This document shows, in pieces, positions 2,235-19,642 of a stretch of 49,690 nt of DNA (positions are counted from its first letter, which is position 1; each line of letters opens with the position of its first letter). Both the position numbers and the translations under genes were made by a program. This DNA is from a virus: positions 1 through 49,690 of IMG/VR virus record IMGVR_UViG_3300011113_000730. The stretch is one strand, 5' to 3'. Below the pieces are notes generated by a model. It worked only from the letters and a program-made list of their open reading frames with translations. It did not search any database and was not told where the DNA came from.

Positions 2235-3065
2235 ATGAAAAAAGTTTTTACAGAAGGATTTAAAGTTGAAGGCACACCTGACTTGAAATATTATGCGTTC
2301 GATTGGGACGATAATATTGTTCACATGCCGACAAAAATTTTAGTTAAAGATGAGAGTGGGAACGAAGTTGGAATGTCTACTGATGATTTTGCGGAGTTTA
2401 GACATCAAATAGGGAAAGAACCGTTTAGTTACAAAGGTAACACGATAGTGGGATATAGTGATTCTCCATTTAGAAATTTCAGAACCGACGGGGACAAAGA
2501 TTTTTTGGTGGACGCTATGAGAGCAAAAACAGGTCCAGCTTTCGATGATTTTAGAGAGGCAATTAATAACGGTTCAATATTTGCGATAATTACTGCGAGA
2601 GGACATAATCCTAATACTATAAAAGAGGCAATTTATAACTATATTATAGAAGGCTTTAATGGTATCGACAAAGATGAATTAGTTAAAAACCTAAAAAAAT
2701 ACAGGTCTTTTATGGGTGAAGATGAAATGACTGACGAGGAATTAATCAAGTCATATTTGGAACTCAATAAATATCATCCTGTGTCGTTCGGTGATGAAGA
2801 AGGAGCGGTGAACCCTGAGGAAGCCAAAGTGGAGGCTATGGAAAGTTTTGTTAATTACATTAAAGCTATGGCAGCTGTACTTAATAAAAGAGCATTCTTA
2901 AAAAAGGATATTGCAAATAAATTCAATCCTAAAAACTTATCTATAGGATTTAGTGACGATGATCCAAAAAATATAGAAGTAATGAAAAAACACTTTAAAA
3001 ATAAACCAGATAATATAGTAAAAACTTATTCTACTGCTGGAGGAGTTAAGCAGGAAGTTAATTAA
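2235..3065 (+). CDS. HAD-superfamily phosphatase-like protein
   Basis: The 276-aa protein has the haloacid dehalogenase signatures in order. Motif I is FDWDDN with D23 as likely nucleophile and D25 as likely acid/base. Motif II is IITARG with T120. Motif IV is the acidic IGFSDDDPKN with D241-D243. A helical insertion at roughly residues 140-220 contains the basic stretch KNLKKYR and may be a cap. The HAD family usually hydrolyses phosphate esters with Mg2+. The substrate here cannot be told; a nucleic-acid end or nucleotide phosphatase is one option. The gene sits between sheath and tube, an unusual place for an enzyme, and lies just behind the sheath terminator, so expression is probably lower than that of its neighbours. 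No late-type octamer precedes it. The fold call is good, the function open. Confidence 0.72.
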   Translation: MKKVFTEGFKVEGTPDLKYYAFDWDDNIVHMPTKILVKDESGNEVGMSTDDFAEFRHQIGKEPFSYKGNTIVGYSDSPFRNFRTDGDKDFLVDAMRAKTGPAFDDFREAINNGSIFAIITARGHNPNTIKEAIYNYIIEGFNGIDKDELVKNLKKYRSFMGEDEMTDEELIKSYLELNKYHPVSFGDEEGAVNPEEAKVEAMESFVNYIKAMAAVLNKRAFLKKDIANKFNPKNLSIGFSDDDPKNIEVMKKHFKNKPDNIVKTYSTAGGVKQEVN

Positions 3066-3159: not shown

Positions 3160-3648
3160 ATGGCTGATTTATTAATGAAAATGCCGATACCTTACGAACC
3201 GAAACGACAGAATCGTTTTATCTTAAGGTTTCCATCATCACTAGGTATAAATGAATGGTTTGTTGAATCATCAGCAAGACCACATATACAAATAGTATCC
3301 ACTCCAATCCCTTTTTTGAACACTGAAACTTATGTTGCGGGAAGGTTTACTTGGCAAACAATTCCAGCAGTATTCAGAGACCCGATTGGACCTTCTGCAG
3401 CACAAGCTCTAATGGAATGGGTTCGTTTACACGCAGAATCTGTAACAGGACGTATGGGTTATGCTGCAGGTTACAAAAAAGATGTTGACCTCGAAATGTT
3501 AGACCCAACCGGAGTTGTTGTGGAAAAATGGATTCTATATGGAACATTCCTAACAGATGTGAACTTCAACGCTTTAAGTTATGCTCAAGACGGATTAGCA
3601 ACGATAAGTACAACTTTGAGAATGGACCGTTGTGTACTTGTTTACTAA
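3160..3648 (+). CDS. gp19: Tail tube protein, T4 gp19-like
   Basis: The 162-aa protein matches T4 gp19 (163 aa) in size and pattern. An N-terminal RQNRFILRFPSSLG strand is followed by a middle region with IPAVFRDPIG and ALMEWVRLH, then DVDLEMLDPTGVVVEKWILYG, and a closing strand region SYAQDGLATISTTLRMD. These are recurring features of the gp19 / Hcp-like tube fold. The product polymerises as stacked hexameric rings that form the inner tube inside the sheath and conduct DNA. The leader from 3066 is extremely A-rich with no Shine-Dalgarno, as expected for a highly expressed gene in a Bacteroidota host. A strong terminator directly behind the gene insulates it from the chaperone gene. Confidence 0.93.
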   Translation: MADLLMKMPIPYEPKRQNRFILRFPSSLGINEWFVESSARPHIQIVSTPIPFLNTETYVAGRFTWQTIPAVFRDPIGPSAAQALMEWVRLHAESVTGRMGYAAGYKKDVDLEMLDPTGVVVEKWILYGTFLTDVNFNALSYAQDGLATISTTLRMDRCVLVY

Positions 3649-3729: not shown

Positions 3730-4473
3730 ATGGATAATCAAGCAAGAGAATATGGACAAACGAATTTTTCGTTACCTCACGACGTTGTGCCGTTACCGAC
3801 ACAAGGTATGTTTTACAAAAACAAGAAGAAAGCAATAAAAGTTGGATACCTTACTGCTAATGATGAGAATATCCTCATGGGAGGTGGAAATGACATGACC
3901 CAAGTTTTGTTGAGATCTAAAATCTACGAGCCGGATATTCGAATTGAAGATTTGATGGAAGGAGATGTTGAAGCAATATTAATTTTTTTAAGAAACACAT
4001 CATTCGGTCCTGAAATGGAATTAAATTTGGTCGACCCAATCACTAAAAAACCATTCAAAGGTACGGTCAGACTCGATGAATTGGATGTTATTAAGGGTCA
4101 ACAACCATTAGAGGATGGAACATTCGTAACAAAACTACCAAAGTCCGAAACTACCGTAAAAATAAAACCTTTAACTTATGGTGAGATTTTAGAAATCCAA
4201 AAAATGTCGGAATCATATCCTTTAGGTAGAACCGCACCAAAGGTTACTTGGAGGTTGAACAAACAAATTACAGAGGTAAATGGTATAACAGATAAGTCAG
4301 AAATTGCTAAGTTTATAGACCAAATGCCAATCGCCGATTCGAAGTATATAAGAAAGTTCATGGATGATAATGAACCAAAATTAGATTTAACGAGAACAGT
4401 AATAGCCCCATCAGGAGAGAAACTAACAGTCAATGTTGGATTTGGGGTTGACTTTTTTCGTCCTTTCTTCTGA
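3730..4473 (+). CDS. gp26: Tail assembly chaperone / baseplate protein, T4 gp26-gp51 type
   Basis: The 247-aa protein opens with NFSLPHDVVPLPTQGMFY, continues with VGYLTANDENILM and ends GFGVDFFRPFF. This is the recurring layout of the T4 gp26/gp51 baseplate family: the LPSxG-x-FY opening, an xLTAxDExIL segment and a terminal aromatic FFxP. Proteins at this position, between tube and tape measure, generally act as tail assembly chaperones that keep the tape measure protein soluble, and are often made in two forms by a frameshift. A 59-codon frame in +1 overlaps the 3' end, with a TTTTTT run at 4453-4458 in the overlap (next entry). The ATG begins 3 nt after the terminator T-run and has no Shine-Dalgarno. 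Family call is confident; the chaperone role is inferred from position. Confidence 0.8.
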   Translation: MDNQAREYGQTNFSLPHDVVPLPTQGMFYKNKKKAIKVGYLTANDENILMGGGNDMTQVLLRSKIYEPDIRIEDLMEGDVEAILIFLRNTSFGPEMELNLVDPITKKPFKGTVRLDELDVIKGQQPLEDGTFVTKLPKSETTVKIKPLTYGEILEIQKMSESYPLGRTAPKVTWRLNKQITEVNGITDKSEIAKFIDQMPIADSKYIRKFMDDNEPKLDLTRTVIAPSGEKLTVNVGFGVDFFRPFF

Positions 4474-4612
4474 TTATAGGAAGGGGCAAATTGATGAATT
4501 TTACTTTCTGAAGACACTTTTAAATGTATCTTATTCTGATTTTTTGATAATGCCAATATTCGTCAGAAAGTATCTTTTAGATAAATGGGTTGAATTAAAC
4601 AAAAAGGGCTGA
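4433..4612 (+). CDS. Small overlapping +1-frame ORF, probable second tail assembly chaperone product
   Basis: This frame is +1 relative to the gp26-like gene and overlaps its last 41 nt. If translated alone from ATG 4433 it gives 59 aa; if entered by +1 or -2 frameshifting at the T-run 4453-4458 it gives a fusion of about 293-294 aa. Past the upstream stop it reads DYRKGQIDEFYFLKTLLNVS, then YSDFLIMPIFVRKYLLDKW, a helical pattern (hydrophobic helix, YS-DF, MP, R-K) like the small C-terminal partner of tail assembly chaperones in other long-tailed phages. It fills otherwise non-coding space and stops exactly inside the left arm of the terminator. The tape measure gene follows, as in lambda G-GT-H order. 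Whether it is made alone or as a fusion cannot be decided here. Confidence 0.68.
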   Translation: MLDLGLTFFVLSSDYRKGQIDEFYFLKTLLNVSYSDFLIMPIFVRKYLLDKWVELNKKG

Positions 4613-4627
4613 AAAATCAGCCCTTTT
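4602..4627 (+). terminator. Rho-independent terminator after the chaperone pair
   Basis: AAAAGGGCTGA (4602-4612) pairs with TCAGCCCTTTT (4617-4627) around an AAAA loop; the right arm supplies the T-run. The stop codon of the small +1 ORF is inside the left arm. Confidence 0.85.
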
Positions 4628-11638: not shown

Positions 11639-11961
11639 TGGCATATCAATATTGGAATAGATACAGTGATTTTCTTATTAATGGGGAACAAACAGTCGTT
11701 CCCTTTGTTTACCTGCCTCAAAAACCGACGGATAAAGCATTTATCTACAAAGTTGCTAAAAGTAGATTAGATAAAGTTTCCCAAGAATTTTATAATTCAC
11801 CTGTATTTAGCTGGTTGATACTCCAAGCAAATCCCCAATTCGGAGGTCTTGAAAATAATATTTATGATGGTGCGGTATTGATTATACCATTTCCGTTATT
11901 ACCATCTTTACAAGATTATAAGGCTGCAATAGAAAATCATTTTTATTATTATGGTAGGTAA
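11638..11961 (+). CDS. Small baseplate protein, gp53/LysM-like
   Basis: The 107-aa protein contains IYKVAKSRLDKVSQEFYNSP, then FSWLILQANPQFG, then NNIYDGAVLIIPFPL. This is the pattern of LysM-like tail proteins such as P2 gpX and T4 gp53: Y-x-V, rLD-x-x-a-x-x-fY, W-x-I-x-x-aNp, and G-x-x-L-x-IP. Such proteins link the hub to the wedge ring in baseplates. T4 gp53 is longer (196 aa), so only the core module is present. The start ATG overlaps the upstream stop (TAATG), and the 3' end overlaps the next gene by 11 nt, so the three genes are very likely translated as one coupled unit. Good family-level confidence; exact equivalence to gp53 is inferred. Confidence 0.72.
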   Translation: MAYQYWNRYSDFLINGEQTVVPFVYLPQKPTDKAFIYKVAKSRLDKVSQEFYNSPVFSWLILQANPQFGGLENNIYDGAVLIIPFPLLPSLQDYKAAIENHFYYYGR

Positions 11962-14900
11962 CACACAAGCGGACACAAGTGGAAATATTTTAGTTGAGTT
12001 GGACGAAAACAATATTATTGTAGTTGACCCAAACAAAACTACTGATAATTTCGGGAACATCAAGGAAAGGCTTGTTGACCACGAAAACCTTGTGATGTAT
12101 GCCAACTTGGAGGCTGATGTCTTACCACGAACAAAATTGTCGGTTGGTGGAAGCCCTAATGATAGAATCCAGACTATCTCTGTTGCAAAAATGAATTTTC
12201 TGAAACCCACTAAAAATTCATATCTCGGAACAGGTTATTATGATGAGATGACTGGTGAAAATACGACACAATTCAAAGGAGAGAATCAAAAAGCTGCAAT
12301 AGCTCAGCCTGCGACTGATAGTACTAACCCTTATGTACTCGAGACAGTTGTCAATCAAAAGGACGTAATTGATAACGGATTATTGGGTATTACATCGATT
12401 AATATCAAAACATCATCAAATTTCATTCCATCGGTGGACATATTATTGGAGGATGTTCAAGGGAAAGGATTGTTTCAGTTAGGTAATAATTCACCTTATT
12501 CTGCCTTCTTCAACTTACCGTACCCACAATTCTATCTTACACTCAAAGGATATTATGGACAAGCAATAAGATATCAACTCAACTTGAAAACTTTTCACGC
12601 TTCATTCAATGGATTTAGTGGAAATTATCAGGTTAGATTAAATTTTGTAGGATACAAATTCAATATCTTGAATGAAGTGGCAATGGGTCACCTATTGGCA
12701 ACTCCTCACATGTATAGTCAAAGGTTCGATGTCACCCAAACAGTGGATGGTCCTCAACAACCTAATAAAGCAGCTGAGTCTCAAGCAAGTACTCAAGCTG
12801 AAAGAGGGGCAAATAATTTAGGTTCTAATGAAGCAGTTGTCACCCAACTTGTAGCTGAAAAAGGATATCAGAAAATATTGGAAGTTTACAGTGAATACAA
12901 AGCTAAAGGATTAATAGCCCCTGATTTTCCAGAGTTAACATTAGTTCAACTAATGAATAAGTTGGAAACTTTTGAACAACTAATTGCGGATTCGTTTGAT
13001 AAAACTGAAGTAGAGTCATTGACGAATATTAGAAACTACAAGTCGGTTCTTACACAGTATTTTGCAGCAATTAGAGGATCGAACACATCCTGGTTTAATA
13101 GGAATTTAAATCCAAGACCAATAGTCCTCAAAAATGGTCAAAAATTATATGTATTTAAAGACTTGTCAAAAGAAGCTAAGGAAATTGAGATAAGTCAATT
13201 ACAAGGGGATATTATAAAATTCAACGATGTGTTGGCAAGCAATCCGACGTTGGGGTCCAAAGGGGCGGCACCAATTCCAAATCCTATAAAATATGATATG
13301 ATTGAGGCAACAGCACCAGTGTTTTCGGAAGTTAATTGGAGAGAAACAACTAGAATCCAAACAGGAATTGTTAACCCGAGTACTGTGGATGAAACTCAAA
13401 CAAAGATTAACTTAACAAAGTTTTTTGTTCCTACATCTATAGAATTACCCAAAAACCCATCTGGAATTATTGAAACATTGGAGCTTTTAGCTATAGGTAC
13501 TTTAGTTAAAGAAAAATGGTTTGTATTTGAAGACGAAGGACGATTCGACAAAGAAATTGCCTCACTTGAAACTCAAGCCAACAAAAAACTATCTGATTAC
13601 GAAAGTCAAATTACTACAGCACTATTAAGAAAAGTTGAGGATACTGCTACGGGTCTCGGGTTCAAACCCACTGTGAGAAATATGTTAGCGGTTATTATGG
13701 CATCTGCAGAAGGTTTCATTCGTCTTTTGGATGATGTTCATACGAATGCGTGGGACGTGAAGTATGACCCTGTTAGAAAACAAGCGATTTTGAACGACTT
13801 GGCTTCAGCACCAAGTTCTGATTCTCAAGATGATTTGAAATTAGGTGCAAACGCAATTGATGAAATTGGTGGATTAAAGTTAGCTGAAATACCAGTTTAT
13901 CCTTGGCCACAATTTTTTGTTGAAACTCAAGATGAAAAAAACAAATTTCAATTGAAATACATAGCGGACCCATCTGTTGTGGATTTGACACAAGGATATC
14001 TTTTTGACAAATGGCCGGAAGTTGAATTTGTCGAGGAATATATGAAGGGATTAACACAAAAGTTTCAGAATCCTACTGCTCCTCCACCATTAGATAATGA
14101 ACGGGATACTAATATTATTAACATCAATGCGATTGAATTTCCGTCGGCGGGATTGGCGTATTCGAACAAAGAAGAAATAAAGTTTTTTTATGAAATATGG
14201 GAAAGACAATTTTTAACTTCTCGTTATTCTGGATTTATAAGGGGAAACTCGAATCAGATTAATGAATTGATTACATTAAACACGGAGGCAGAAGCTAATA
14301 ATATTATTTCGAAACTTGGAATAAGTTCTCCATACTTAACATTGAAACTAAAAAACTTCAATTTAAATGCTTCTGACTACCCTGAATTCTTGAGAACAAT
14401 ATCAAACTCAGGGACAGGTAGAGCTTATCAAGATTTTATTAGAGATTTTTTCGTGACTCCATATATTAAAAGGATAACTGAAAAATCGTTCGAAATTGTC
14501 AGTACTTTGGATTTAGGTAAAATACCTCAAACCGCAACGAAATCAGAAGCACTAAGATCTTTAGTAGTCAATGCGCCAAATGACCCTTTAATTGTAGATA
14601 CTTTACCTTACACAGACCAAACTTGGTGTATTAACAATTTAAACCAGGGAAATAGTGCTTTGTCCAATCAAGTTTATAATACAAACAAGTCTTTGACTAT
14701 TTTTGAGCCAAGAAGAATTATTGCAAACTTTACCGACGTGTATAACTACACAACAAATAGACCTGTAACAAATTTCTCATATATATTAAATCAAAATCCG
14801 ACTGAGACTATTGACACGACTGGAATTTCTTCATACACAACATACGGACCTCTTGGACTCAGTGCATTTTATCTGAACAGAAACCCTCAGGATTTTGTTG

Positions 14901-17900
14901 CGACTGAAGGATATATCAATGGTACTACTCCTACGAGAGCTTTCAGTCCAAGAAGTACTACTTCAATGTTGAATACTCCTTACTTTATAAATGCAGTACA
15001 AAACGGAGTTTATAATTCTAGGTTGTCAGGAATATCTTATCCGTATGTTCAAGCGGCATATATGTTCCTGAATTCATTACCTTTAGCAACTTTAAGGGAA
15101 AAATACAAATCTGTTTCGAACAATATTACAACCGATTTGGATTACATATCCTCAACATTCAAAAAATTTGGTGCGATTCATAAGTTACCATATGCTTGGA
15201 TTTTAAAATATGGTTCGATTTGGCACAGGTACAAAAAATACAAAGAGTCAAATATTGATATATTGGAAAGTGCTTGGAAAAATTTCGATTATGCGGGGAA
15301 TTTCTATCCAGTCACAAGCGCTGTAACCGAAACATATGAATTCAAGTATTCGAATGTCGATACAAAAATAACACTTCAAAGTGAAGGGGTAACTCAAATC
15401 CAGATGCAAGTCGGATTTTATCCTAAAGTTATTAATGACTTCAACGTTTTTTTAAACGGATATGATTTGTATGAAAATTATACGAGTGAGGAAATTCAAC
15501 AGAGTGTCAACTCTGGAATGAAATTATATAATTTCGGTTCATCAAACATCGATAGCGCTAAACAAGGAGATAAAAATTTAAGATTAACAACATGGTCGAT
15601 TTTACTACCAAACATAACTCTTAGACCTCCAATTGATTGTAATCCGAAAGATAATACTGTTGGTGATGATTACTTTGTTATTCCATCATTTGGTACACCA
15701 TTTAATCAAACAGTGGATTCTTGTATCAGTGACCAAACAACATCTCCAACAACTGTTGTAAATTTAACTAACAATCCGAACATGTACAATGGGTCGGTCA
15801 GATGTTTATGGTCAGCCCCTAACTATGGTTATTTTGATAGTAATCAATTGGCCTTCCCTCAACCTGATTCATATCTAACTTCAATCACGAATGGTAATAG
15901 TCAAACACCATTATATTTTCTCACACAAGACAACTATACAAAAATAGAAGAAGTGTTTTCTGTTTTCGAAAAGAAAATTTTAGATTCGTTCGAAACTGAA
16001 TTTTTAAATTTTTGTAAACCAATTGGTAACGCTTCAACAGGTAGAAATATTGTAACTTTTGGACAGTCACCTGTGGACCCTAATGCTACTTTTAAAAACT
16101 TTCAATCATTATTCAGAAGTTTAATGGTGGTACCAGCTAAAACGAAAACGGAAACTGATGAGTTGTATTTTAACAATGTAATTAATAATCAATATTCACT
16201 ATTCCAAAATGGTATAAAATCATTTATGGAATATGATGTGATATTCAAATATGGTAATCCGTCCAACTACGAAAGGAGAATTTTCGATTCTTACTTATCT
16301 CACAACAATACTCAAGAAGTTGTCGACCCAATTACTTTCGAACCTTACGTACCTAATTCTCTCCCTAGTGCTGGTGGTAATTTATCATTAAGTCAATCTC
16401 AAATTAATAATAGACAAGCTTGGACCGCTTTGGAAACGGAAGTAGGGTTCTCGACAATTCCTAACGTTAGGTATAGTTCAATAGGGTCTTATATCACAGA
16501 TTTCTTTATTGATAACAATATAGCCTTCACTAGTGAAAATGTTACATTGTTAGCACCTATTATCAAAATGTACGCCACTCAAAAATTAAATAACCCAAAT
16601 CTGAACGCGGCACAATTTCAAAATCAACTTAGTCAATATCTTAACAGAGAAACATTGATTCAAAACAACTTTTTGAATGGAGTTCTTAGTAGATTAAGAA
16701 AAGATTTACCAGACCAAGTACAATTACCTGAACGTGTAATTAATAGTGTCATCACTGGAGACCAAAGTAAGGTCGAAAATTATGAGGTTTTCAAATCGTT
16801 GAATGACAAGTGGATTGCTGGTGGGGATTGGAAAACCAAAACTTTATTCGAAGATATGTTATTTTTGGATAGAGCATCAAGAAATATTGGTGATAGTATA
16901 TTACTCGATATTTTTGATTTGAAATATATGTTTGGTGTTGGAGGTAAAACTCCTGGTGATTTTTCTCTTAATCAAGCCATGAGTGTTTTCACTTTTATAA
17001 GTGGTATTTTGATTAAAAATAATTTTGTTGTGATGCCACTTCCAGCATATGTAAATTTCTACAATATTCAAGATGTTGATGTGAGTGCTACTCCAAGACT
17101 TGATAGACCAGAACAATTTGCAAATAATTTATGGGGGACATTTTTGGATGTAGATTATAGAAATTCGGGACCAAAGATGGTCTGTTTCTATGCTGGAAAA
17201 CCTTCACAATACTTGAAATTACCTAAAGGAGATTCTAAATATAGAGACGATGCTTTTGAAATGAGAAGAGCTTCTGGTAATCCATTGTTAGAAGACCAAC
17301 AAGGAAAAAAGGATTGGGCTCTTTCAAACAAGTGTGTCGGATTCAATGTCGATGTTGGAATTAGAAATCAGAACATTTTTTATTCCATGACAGTTTCTCA
17401 AGATAATGGGGTTGCAACATCTGAATCAATTAACGTTCAACTTAATATGGTAAATCAAGCTTCAGGAAGACAGATAGCCACACAAAATAATAGTTTATAT
17501 AACCTATATAAAAATAGGTCATATAAATGTTCGATAACAAGTTTGGGAAATGCTCTGATACAACCCACAATGTATTTCAATTTACGACATGTTCCTATGT
17601 TTGATGGACCATACTTAATTACTGAGGTAAATCATTCAATTCAACAAGGGTCATTCCAAACTACATTTGATGGAACTAGACAAGGTTATTTCGATTTACC
17701 TACTATAGATAGTTTCCTACAAAGTATCAATCAGAATTTGATTACAAAGTTGGAAGAAATACTTAAAATAAATAAGGATCAAATAAAAATTGAAGCTACA
17801 ACTGATAACGAAAAATCGAATGAAGTTGTACAAAAGGCGGATAACACAAAGGACACAACAAATTCTTGTGTTTCAAAAATAACCGCGCCAGTTTATGTAA

Positions 17901-19642
17901 ATGGTGGATATGAAGCGGTTGATGCAACCTTGACCGAAATGACTCCACAAGTTTTTGCAGAGGCATTAAAAAGGTTATTACCTAATAACGTTGATTTGCA
18001 AGTTGCGATATATGCTATTTCTTACATCAGAACTTATCAAGAAGCTTCTGATACAGGCGCTGGTATGTTTAACGGATGGAACAATAATTTTGCAACATTG
18101 TCCCTGACTCAAGATTGGTTTGGACAAGTTTCACTTTTGGAAAAAAGATATAGTTGCATCAACATACGAACTAATCCTGGGAACTCGTCTTCAGAACCAA
18201 TTGCTCATTTTAGTTCATTAGATAAATATATCCAATTTATGGCTGGCAGACTCCGAAGCAATCTCGATAGAATAATTCGCCTTGGATTAACGAAGTATTA
18301 TGTTTGCCATTGGCCTGTTGATAACATTTCTGAGGAATACTATGATAAAAATAAAGATGAATTTTTAGAGACTAAAGAAACAATCGATAAGGCTTTAGCT
18401 TCTGCTGCGGAATCTGGATTAAAGACAAAGAACGAAATACTTAAAGACATCGAAAATAACAATAAAGACGGAAACCAAGAGCAGTTACCAACTGAAAGTC
18501 AAATTTGTCCTCCACCAGTGATATCCACATTCTCACCTTCTGTTGGAAATACAGGTACAATTGTCCAAGTCAATGGACGAAATTTTGAATCTGTAAAATC
18601 AATCAGAGTTATAAACAAAGATGTTGAGTTAAAAGATATTACTGTGTTCAACCCTCAGACATTGAGATTCACTCTACCTGCAGTTCAAATTCCTGAAGGG
18701 CAAAGTGTTGCAACTGGAAGAATAAGTATTACTACAGAATATGGAACATTCGAAAGTTTGGTTGACTTTACATTCAATCCATCGTTATCAAATGAAACAT
18801 CATCACCGGGAGGATATGCGGATACTACAACCCAACAACAATTAAGTATTACACAGCAAGAAGTTATCGGTACAAATATAAATCCACAGAATACTGGTCC
18901 AATTCCTTTAATTCAATATAAACAAATTAAAGATGAGACAGGGAGCACTTCCCAATTAGAGGTTAAAGTGAATCCTGAAGTAACGGGATGGAAAATTAAT
19001 AATACTAATTTATACAGTTACACAATTAATGAAGTTGTAGAAGGTCCTAATAATTCCATCAAATTAAATCAAGTTAAAAAGTTAGATAACCAAAAACTTG
19101 AACAATTTGTTTCGGAAGACCAACAAGAATTTATTGTAAATGAACAACAAATGATTGAACTTCTGAATTTAAATGATTACAAAATCAGCACTACTAAGAC
19201 TATTGTGTTTATAACTTTGACCGCAATTCCTGATGATAGATCGGTGAATTCGGAAAATGTTATTCTTAATTTCACCTTCGAGTTAAATATTCCAAGTGTG
19301 GTCAAACGAGGAAAGGGTCGACTTAGTTTAGTTTCAGACACAAACTCTGGTGGGTTACCAAACTTTAATGGTAATAGTTATTACAATATCGAAAAACCAA
19401 ATGGAGGGTATTATACTTATCAACTTACACCAACTACAAACTTGACGGTGTTGAAGACTGAAATTGTAAGAGTACCTGAAATAGATACTATGACGATTAA
19501 TATTACAAATGGGCCTGACACAAAATACACCAATTTAATAAGAGTTTCTGCACTGGGAGAATTTCAGTTGGTGATTAGATATGTAGAGTCAGAATTACCG
19601 AACGAACCTTTCAATGTAACATCAGGAAAAATTATTTTATAA
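11951..19642 (+). CDS. Giant baseplate hub-like protein with probable peptidoglycan-hydrolase region and IPT/TIG domain
   Basis: At 2563 aa this is the largest gene in the window. The N-terminal 250 residues contain strand-rich segments such as GITSINIKTSSNFIPSVDIL and YFYPQFYLTLKG-like patches, consistent with hub proteins. Residues about 1800-1920 (SMTVSQDNGVATSESINVQL, FNLRHVPMFDGPYLITEVNH, IQQGSFQTTFDGTRQGYF) resemble the end of gpD/gp27-type hub proteins. Residues about 1973-2125 contain FNGWNNNFATLSLTQDWFG, EPIAHFSSLDKYIQFMAG and a helical pair, like tail-associated glucosaminidase or transglycosylase regions. Residues 2186-2277 are an IPT/TIG domain (PPVISTFSPSVGNTGTIVQV, then NGRNF). 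About 280 further residues follow, of unknown fold. It likely combines the T4 gp27 and gp5 roles: forming the central hub and locally opening the cell wall. The hydrolase call is inference; catalytic residues cannot be fixed. Confidence 0.65.
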   Translation: MVGNTQADTSGNILVELDENNIIVVDPNKTTDNFGNIKERLVDHENLVMYANLEADVLPRTKLSVGGSPNDRIQTISVAKMNFLKPTKNSYLGTGYYDEMTGENTTQFKGENQKAAIAQPATDSTNPYVLETVVNQKDVIDNGLLGITSINIKTSSNFIPSVDILLEDVQGKGLFQLGNNSPYSAFFNLPYPQFYLTLKGYYGQAIRYQLNLKTFHASFNGFSGNYQVRLNFVGYKFNILNEVAMGHLLATPHMYSQRFDVTQTVDGPQQPNKAAESQASTQAERGANNLGSNEAVVTQLVAEKGYQKILEVYSEYKAKGLIAPDFPELTLVQLMNKLETFEQLIADSFDKTEVESLTNIRNYKSVLTQYFAAIRGSNTSWFNRNLNPRPIVLKNGQKLYVFKDLSKEAKEIEISQLQGDIIKFNDVLASNPTLGSKGAAPIPNPIKYDMIEATAPVFSEVNWRETTRIQTGIVNPSTVDETQTKINLTKFFVPTSIELPKNPSGIIETLELLAIGTLVKEKWFVFEDEGRFDKEIASLETQANKKLSDYESQITTALLRKVEDTATGLGFKPTVRNMLAVIMASAEGFIRLLDDVHTNAWDVKYDPVRKQAILNDLASAPSSDSQDDLKLGANAIDEIGGLKLAEIPVYPWPQFFVETQDEKNKFQLKYIADPSVVDLTQGYLFDKWPEVEFVEEYMKGLTQKFQNPTAPPPLDNERDTNIININAIEFPSAGLAYSNKEEIKFFYEIWERQFLTSRYSGFIRGNSNQINELITLNTEAEANNIISKLGISSPYLTLKLKNFNLNASDYPEFLRTISNSGTGRAYQDFIRDFFVTPYIKRITEKSFEIVSTLDLGKIPQTATKSEALRSLVVNAPNDPLIVDTLPYTDQTWCINNLNQGNSALSNQVYNTNKSLTIFEPRRIIANFTDVYNYTTNRPVTNFSYILNQNPTETIDTTGISSYTTYGPLGLSAFYLNRNPQDFVATEGYINGTTPTRAFSPRSTTSMLNTPYFINAVQNGVYNSRLSGISYPYVQAAYMFLNSLPLATLREKYKSVSNNITTDLDYISSTFKKFGAIHKLPYAWILKYGSIWHRYKKYKESNIDILESAWKNFDYAGNFYPVTSAVTETYEFKYSNVDTKITLQSEGVTQIQMQVGFYPKVINDFNVFLNGYDLYENYTSEEIQQSVNSGMKLYNFGSSNIDSAKQGDKNLRLTTWSILLPNITLRPPIDCNPKDNTVGDDYFVIPSFGTPFNQTVDSCISDQTTSPTTVVNLTNNPNMYNGSVRCLWSAPNYGYFDSNQLAFPQPDSYLTSITNGNSQTPLYFLTQDNYTKIEEVFSVFEKKILDSFETEFLNFCKPIGNASTGRNIVTFGQSPVDPNATFKNFQSLFRSLMVVPAKTKTETDELYFNNVINNQYSLFQNGIKSFMEYDVIFKYGNPSNYERRIFDSYLSHNNTQEVVDPITFEPYVPNSLPSAGGNLSLSQSQINNRQAWTALETEVGFSTIPNVRYSSIGSYITDFFIDNNIAFTSENVTLLAPIIKMYATQKLNNPNLNAAQFQNQLSQYLNRETLIQNNFLNGVLSRLRKDLPDQVQLPERVINSVITGDQSKVENYEVFKSLNDKWIAGGDWKTKTLFEDMLFLDRASRNIGDSILLDIFDLKYMFGVGGKTPGDFSLNQAMSVFTFISGILIKNNFVVMPLPAYVNFYNIQDVDVSATPRLDRPEQFANNLWGTFLDVDYRNSGPKMVCFYAGKPSQYLKLPKGDSKYRDDAFEMRRASGNPLLEDQQGKKDWALSNKCVGFNVDVGIRNQNIFYSMTVSQDNGVATSESINVQLNMVNQASGRQIATQNNSLYNLYKNRSYKCSITSLGNALIQPTMYFNLRHVPMFDGPYLITEVNHSIQQGSFQTTFDGTRQGYFDLPTIDSFLQSINQNLITKLEEILKINKDQIKIEATTDNEKSNEVVQKADNTKDTTNSCVSKITAPVYVNGGYEAVDATLTEMTPQVFAEALKRLLPNNVDLQVAIYAISYIRTYQEASDTGAGMFNGWNNNFATLSLTQDWFGQVSLLEKRYSCINIRTNPGNSSSEPIAHFSSLDKYIQFMAGRLRSNLDRIIRLGLTKYYVCHWPVDNISEEYYDKNKDEFLETKETIDKALASAAESGLKTKNEILKDIENNNKDGNQEQLPTESQICPPPVISTFSPSVGNTGTIVQVNGRNFESVKSIRVINKDVELKDITVFNPQTLRFTLPAVQIPEGQSVATGRISITTEYGTFESLVDFTFNPSLSNETSSPGGYADTTTQQQLSITQQEVIGTNINPQNTGPIPLIQYKQIKDETGSTSQLEVKVNPEVTGWKINNTNLYSYTINEVVEGPNNSIKLNQVKKLDNQKLEQFVSEDQQEFIVNEQQMIELLNLNDYKISTTKTIVFITLTAIPDDRSVNSENVILNFTFELNIPSVVKRGKGRLSLVSDTNSGGLPNFNGNSYYNIEKPNGGYYTYQLTPTTNLTVLKTEIVRVPEIDTMTINITNGPDTKYTNLIRVSALGEFQLVIRYVESELPNEPFNVTSGKIIL

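Follow-up and report, generated by a model that had tools for sequence, protein, structure and literature searches.

The gp26-like gene of the virus studied here very probably forms a T4-type tail assembly chaperone locus in which a minority of ribosomes slip by +1 to give a 293-aa long form, with an upstream RNA structure as the probable stimulator. We analyzed IMGVR_UViG_3300011113_000730, positions 1 to 49,690 (49,690 nucleotides, one strand), hereafter termed the window. In the proposed mechanism, most ribosomes would stop at 4471–4473 and yield the short gp26-like form, and a minority would slip +1 at TTT TTT while awaiting the scarce tRNA for a CGN codon. The P-site tRNA-Phe would move from TTT to TTC, and the +1 frame would then be read to 4612, producing the long form, whose C-terminal module is gp51-like. 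The slip rate would probably be increased by an RNA stem and hairpin ending 4 bases before the T-run. If the roles are analogous to those of lambda G/GT, the tape measure protein encoded downstream may be coated by the short form and the tail tube recruited by the long form. The features of the locus are collected in Table 1.

Table 1. Features of the chaperone locus and its neighbors in the window.
Feature	Position	Strand	Evidence or remark
Tail tube gene (gp19-like), upstream neighbor	3160..3648	+	phrog_4542 tail tube 4.2e-21
gp26-like short chaperone form (TAC-N-like, 247 aa)	3730..4473	+	PF12322 1.5e-8; phrog_150 3e-13
Outer stem, 5' arm GCCCCA	4405..4410	+	97.7% of cells paired (64 non-redundant sequences); RNAalifold
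Inner hairpin, 5' arm CTAACA	4423..4428	+	68.8% of cells paired; 4/6 pairs with double changes
+1 frame ORF, mechanical listing, 59 codons	4433..4612	+	listed ATG is not the real start
Inner hairpin, 3' arm TGTTGG	4434..4439	+	same 64-sequence pairing test as 5' arm
Outer stem, 3' arm TGGGGT	4443..4448	+	pairing test and RNAalifold
Putative slip site TTT TTT CGT	4453..4461	+	P-site TTT re-pairs as TTC; slow A-site CGN codon
+1-frame extension, 50 aa plus stop, gp51-C-like three-helix module	4460..4612	+	dN/dS, hhalign links, AF2 helices
Terminator-like hairpin overlapping the +1 stop	4602..4627	+	consensus scan only
Tape measure protein gene, 612 aa	4653..6491	+	Foldseek match by fold

Based on direct observation, the elements named in the original prediction are in place. 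The 59-codon ORF exists and lies +1 relative to the 247-codon gene, the TTTTTT run occupies 4453–4458 in codon phase TTT TTT CGT, and reading with one base skipped gives a fusion of 293 aa, as had been estimated. The +1 stop codon (TGA, 4610–4612) falls in the 5' arm of the terminator-like hairpin, and the T-run after this hairpin is weak. Along the genome, the order is tube, gp26-like gene, +1 frame, and tape measure; the gp26-like gene and its +1 frame sit where lambda has G/GT, between the tube and tape-measure genes. The top Foldseek matches of the 612-aa protein are named tape measure protein (E 1.1e-24, 25% identity), and its model is mostly helical with low confidence. No link between this protein and T4 gp29 was detected by hhalign (Prob 0.3). 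A DNA search of phage records with this region gave no match, and a host search via GTDB genomes found no relative. Elsewhere in the window, a 276-aa protein encoded between the sheath and tube genes (2235–3065) carries a HAD-phosphatase-like motif, YYAFDWDDNIV, recognized by eye, and a family search with this protein gave no significant match. Additionally, a 2563-aa protein (11951–19642) contains one IPT/TIG domain at residues 2189–2275. SD-like motifs occur at only two of the 24 gene starts in the window; this rarity and the A/T-rich sequence upstream of the genes resemble the pattern in Bacteroidota phages.

Relatives of the locus were collected in three ways. A protein search gave 80 close viral loci with 77–93% identity, and 48 distant loci were obtained with a made-up bait, diverged from the window protein, the matches being confirmed by tblastn and frame analysis. 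A DNA-pattern scan for GTNGANTTTTTTCGNCCTTTCT contributed at least 119 further stretches, in which the pattern columns are conserved by construction and the columns outside the pattern are free. The pooled protein-search and pattern-scan relatives comprise 129 distinct T6-CGN sites among the matches listed. All close loci that reach the site retain TTT TTT CGY CCT TTC TTC TRA, and, unless the contig ends first, their +1 frame runs uninterrupted to a stop at essentially the same place; the same arrangement is retained in the distant loci. Among the matches listed, the +1 frame is interrupted at 0/129 distinct T6-CGN sites, the module length ranges from 49 to 67 codons, ATG is absent from the +1 frame at 78/129 sites, and any ATG, GTG, or TTG is absent at 13/129. 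In some of these 13, a stop in the +1 frame also lies one codon upstream of T6. No relative found here combines an interrupted +1 frame with an intact upstream gene, one of the two observations that the original prediction had named as counting against it. Similarly, the T-run is altered only in lineages that retain a slip-competent site and the +1 module.

The substitution pattern past the 0-frame stop points in the same direction. Variable sites number 41/46 at the +1 wobble position, as opposed to 22/45 and 15/45 at the other two positions. Across 35 distinct close relatives, the +1 frame has a dN/dS of 0.107, compared with 2.15 and 1.08 for the other two frames, and these two control frames contain stops in 35/35 sequences. 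For the upstream gp26-like gene, the value is 0.075. By length alone, a 59-codon ORF is unremarkable; its conservation, which the original prediction had surmised from its content, is far beyond chance. Collectively, these comparisons indicate that the +1 frame evolves as protein.

The gp26-like gene matches PF12322 with 35.1 bits (cut-off 24.5). T4 gp26 and gp51 both match this family as well, and gp51 consists of a gp26-like part plus a C-terminal module. In 51/51 distinct cyanophage-type loci, gp26 is followed directly, at T TTT TTC, by a homologous module in the −1 frame. By hhalign, this −1 module matches the gp51 C-terminus with Prob 97.6 and the +1 module with Prob 88.8, whereas the +1 module compared directly with the gp51 C-terminus is weak (Prob 6.5), so that the link is transitive via the cyanophage module; reversed controls were under 1. 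These alignments suggest that the +1 extension resembles the T4 gp51 C-terminal module, linked through cyanophages. In the AF2 model of the fusion (mean pLDDT 85.9), the extension forms three helices, at 247–264, 268–273, and 276–289. Among solved structures, only 2OB9, the tail assembly chaperone of HK97, is matched with Z ≥5 (Z 5.0, rmsd 4.3 over 89 residues), a middling match; the viral structures matched belong to gp26-like proteins and baseplate hub assembly proteins. A search by sequence for solved relatives gave none that was credible. The earlier analogy with G/GT in a T4-type tail is thus backed by gene order, the gp26/gp51 relationship, and a weak HK97 chaperone fold match, from which we infer the chaperone role.

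Several other arrangements of the module were observed. The −1 cyanophage-type loci (L133, L135, L136, and L148–L227) include several public genomes or named phages without an annotated gene there. In the Straboviridae examined, a long gp51 is present as its own gene, in several adjoining a separate gp26 gene. In some Vibrio and Stenotrophomonas phages (L143, L147, L141, and L142), a gp51-like ATG lies in TAATG or TGATG over the gp26 stop, and restart may replace or add to frameshifting in these phages. The Ackermannviridae PhiSH19 and Kevin (L145, L146) have a gp51-like −1 frame behind gp26; their sites, ATT TTC ATT TAA and GTT TTC ATC TAA, contain a non-canonical heptamer and have no ATG near. 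Among jumbo phages, LR756511 (L134) carries the module in the −1 frame near GGT TTT TTC TTC, and LR756508 (L081) carries it in the +1 frame.

At the slip site itself, TTTTTTCG is invariant in all protein-search relatives except three lineages with other slip-competent sites: L101–L105 (TTT CTT TGG), Mel-JY01 (TTT TTT TGG), and the jumbo phage LR756508 (TTT CTA TTC). The +1 module is retained in all three despite the altered site. Throughout the T6-CGN group, the A-site codon is always CGN, and the rarest sense codons among the 15,176 codons of the window genes are CGC (3) and CGG (4). A slow A-site codon favors +1 slippage, as established for Ty1 and prfB. The codon in the A site fits +1 slippage of tRNA-Phe from TTT to TTC, and the site pairs a P-site codon able to re-pair (TTT to TTC) with an adjacent rare CGN codon. 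A canonical −1 shift (X XXY YYZ plus an open −1 frame) does not fit, because neither the window nor its relatives have an open −1 frame near the site. A prfB-type SD-stimulated +1 shift does not fit either, as the A site holds CGN and the GGGG lies 8 nt from the P-site codon. The most likely event, judged from these sequences, is a +1 slip on TTT TTT before a rare CGN codon.

Alternative routes to the downstream frame were weighed against this reading. A −2 slip, as in phage Mu, would enter the same frame and add one extra Phe to the fusion; on T6 it also restores full P-site pairing (TTT to TTT), it has a precedent in Mu (PMC5009743), and the L101 site still permits it. We nevertheless consider it unlikely, since the jumbo-phage site TTT CTA TTC re-pairs well only for +1 (TTT to TTC), and the Mel-JY01 and L101–L105 sites also fit +1, the latter as a prfB-like CTT to TTT. 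The slow A-site codon favors +1 as well. Transcriptional slippage would use the same homopolymer to give mRNAs with altered T counts, but six T is short for such slippage, and the L101–L105 sites (TTTCTTT) keep the frame with a longest run of three; on this ground we rejected it as having almost no likelihood. It is also very improbable that the extension is a separate small gp51-like gene with its own start, at ATG 4433 or by restart at the upstream stop. The equivalent ORF is annotated as gp51 in S-PM2 and as baseplate hub assembly catalyst in S-T4, MA10, and phiM7, the TAATG/TGATG restarts occur in some −1 relatives, and an ATG stands at the equivalent position in the window and many relatives. 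Against this, start codons are missing in the +1 clade at the sites counted above, the T-run and the codons upstream of it are constrained, and the FF encoded at the slip site belongs to the conserved +1 peptide. An internal start at ATG 4433, the one given by the mechanical ORF list, is ruled out by the relatives without start codons: in the 13 that lack one, the frame must be reached by frameshifting. Moreover, the +1 stop one codon before T6 at some sites confines the shift to the T-run and a few codons after it. Collectively, these comparisons support the interpretation originally offered, a programmed frameshift in a T4-type chaperone gene, and we infer +1 rather than −2 as its direction.

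The 0 frame carries an additional constraint. Its synonymous variation drops from ~0.6 to 0.16–0.28 across the last ~30 codons, reaching further upstream than the overlap, and this extra constraint corresponds to the element GCCCCNTCAGGAGA ... TTYGGGGTNGAN before T6. Pairing of GCCCCN (4405–4410) with NGGGGT (4443–4448), together with the inner hairpin, was tested on 30 and then on 64 less redundant sequences. In the 64 sequences, 83.2% of cells are paired, versus 75.1% when shuffled and 39–52% when slid, and the covariation of 0.264, versus 0.171 shuffled, is reached by 0/500 shuffles. Compensatory CG to AU changes occur in the outer stem of two relatives (L248 and L339). RNAalifold on the 64 sequences recovered the outer stem and missed the inner hairpin. 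The fold is more stable than the synonymous-codon null in 98% of 63 sequences (mean z −2.16); synonymous codon choice fails to explain the 5' RNA structure. The covariance model matches the window, but 0/48 other sources, including −1 cyanophages, L101/L105, and T4. The stem and hairpin end 4 bases before the T-run, and the distance to T6 is fixed in all T6-CGN carriers. These observations point to a covarying RNA structure that directly precedes the slip site and is confined to the +1 clade.

Other explanations of the same nucleotides were also considered. GGGGT lies at −9 to −5 in 125/129 sites among the matches listed, where it might pair with 16S rRNA as an SD; because only 2/24 window genes have SD-like sites, the stem accounts for GGGGT more simply. 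Downstream RNA structure was sought in the +1 and −1 clades, and none was found. A pseudoknot between TCAGGAGA and the downstream TCTTCTGA, seen by eye in the window, was rejected, being broken in L086, L097, and L106 while TCAGGAGA stays. The conserved upstream element could instead serve a role outside frameshifting, such as mRNA stability or control of the next gene, a possibility that we rate as real though rather doubtful. In its favor, the 3' arm would lie within the ribosome as the slip occurs, and L101–L105 and Mel-JY01 have the +1 module without the CCCC/GGGG element. However, the fixed distance to T6 in all T6-CGN carriers and the absence of the element from all −1 users tested argue for a link to the slip, and 5' mRNA structure is recognized as stimulating bypassing and may also stimulate +1 shifting (PMC5009743). 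The 5' RNA structure probably raises the slip rate. The opinion is evenly divided on a further step, namely, that a +1 shift stimulated by 5' structure stands here in place of the cyanophage −1 shift at a homologous T6C tract, with the direction switched and the fusion product kept.

According to the review of Atkins et al. (2016, PMC5009743), long-tailed phages other than T4 share a conserved G-T frameshift, with −1, −2, or +1 shifts depending on the phage, and 5' mRNA structure is a possible stimulator of +1 shifting. Passages of PMC10885494 and PMC12846349 credit Vladimirov, Gautam, and Davidson (2022) with T4-type chaperone genes, some of them two-gene, with T4 itself as a two-gene case and with poly-T −1 signals for TAC genes in T4-like phages. 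Assignment to this family is therefore already known, and the +1 direction at this locus and the 5' RNA structure are new; no report of a +1 site with 5' structure was found in the open-licence literature. The +1 clade and the cyanophages show G-T-type frameshifting in T4-type tails, the exception named in 2016 (PMC5009743). Given opposite shift directions at a homologous T-run in such tails, T4 genes 26 and 51 become readable as a single frameshifted gene in split form, the two-gene arrangement of T4-like phages itself being published already. The cyanophage gp51 is short, without the first ~200 aa (Sullivan et al., 2010, PMC3037559), and this apparent truncation is explained by the absent part being gp26. 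Moreover, the covarying 5' structure provides a naturally occurring example, open to experiment, of mRNA structure upstream of a +1 site. Together with the switch of shift direction, it is what most deserves testing.

Compared with known systems, the locus resembles lambda G/GT in its proposed short protein and low-level frameshift extension, placed between the tube and tape-measure genes. Lambda shifts by −1, whereas the shift here would be +1 (or −2), with a rare A-site codon and a 5' RNA structure; the likeness is one of arrangement, and no sequence link is claimed. The T4 proteins gp26 and gp51 share with it the PF12322 family and the plan of a gp26-like part plus a C-terminal module, but T4 uses two genes for the two forms where this virus would use one gene and a frameshift. 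Cyanophages, with gp26 and a short gp51, have the same module directly behind gp26; they differ in their −1 shift at T TTT TTC, and no 5' structure was found there. Chaperone shifts outside the −1 direction are also found in Mu (−2) and, very likely, in haloarchaeal HSTV-2 (+1) (PMC5009743), in other phage groups and at other sites. Finally, P-site re-pairing beside a slow A-site codon would be shared with prfB and Ty1, the rare Arg codon being as in Ty1; unlike in prfB, the A site here holds no stop, and the spacing from GGGG to the P site exceeds that of the prfB SD.
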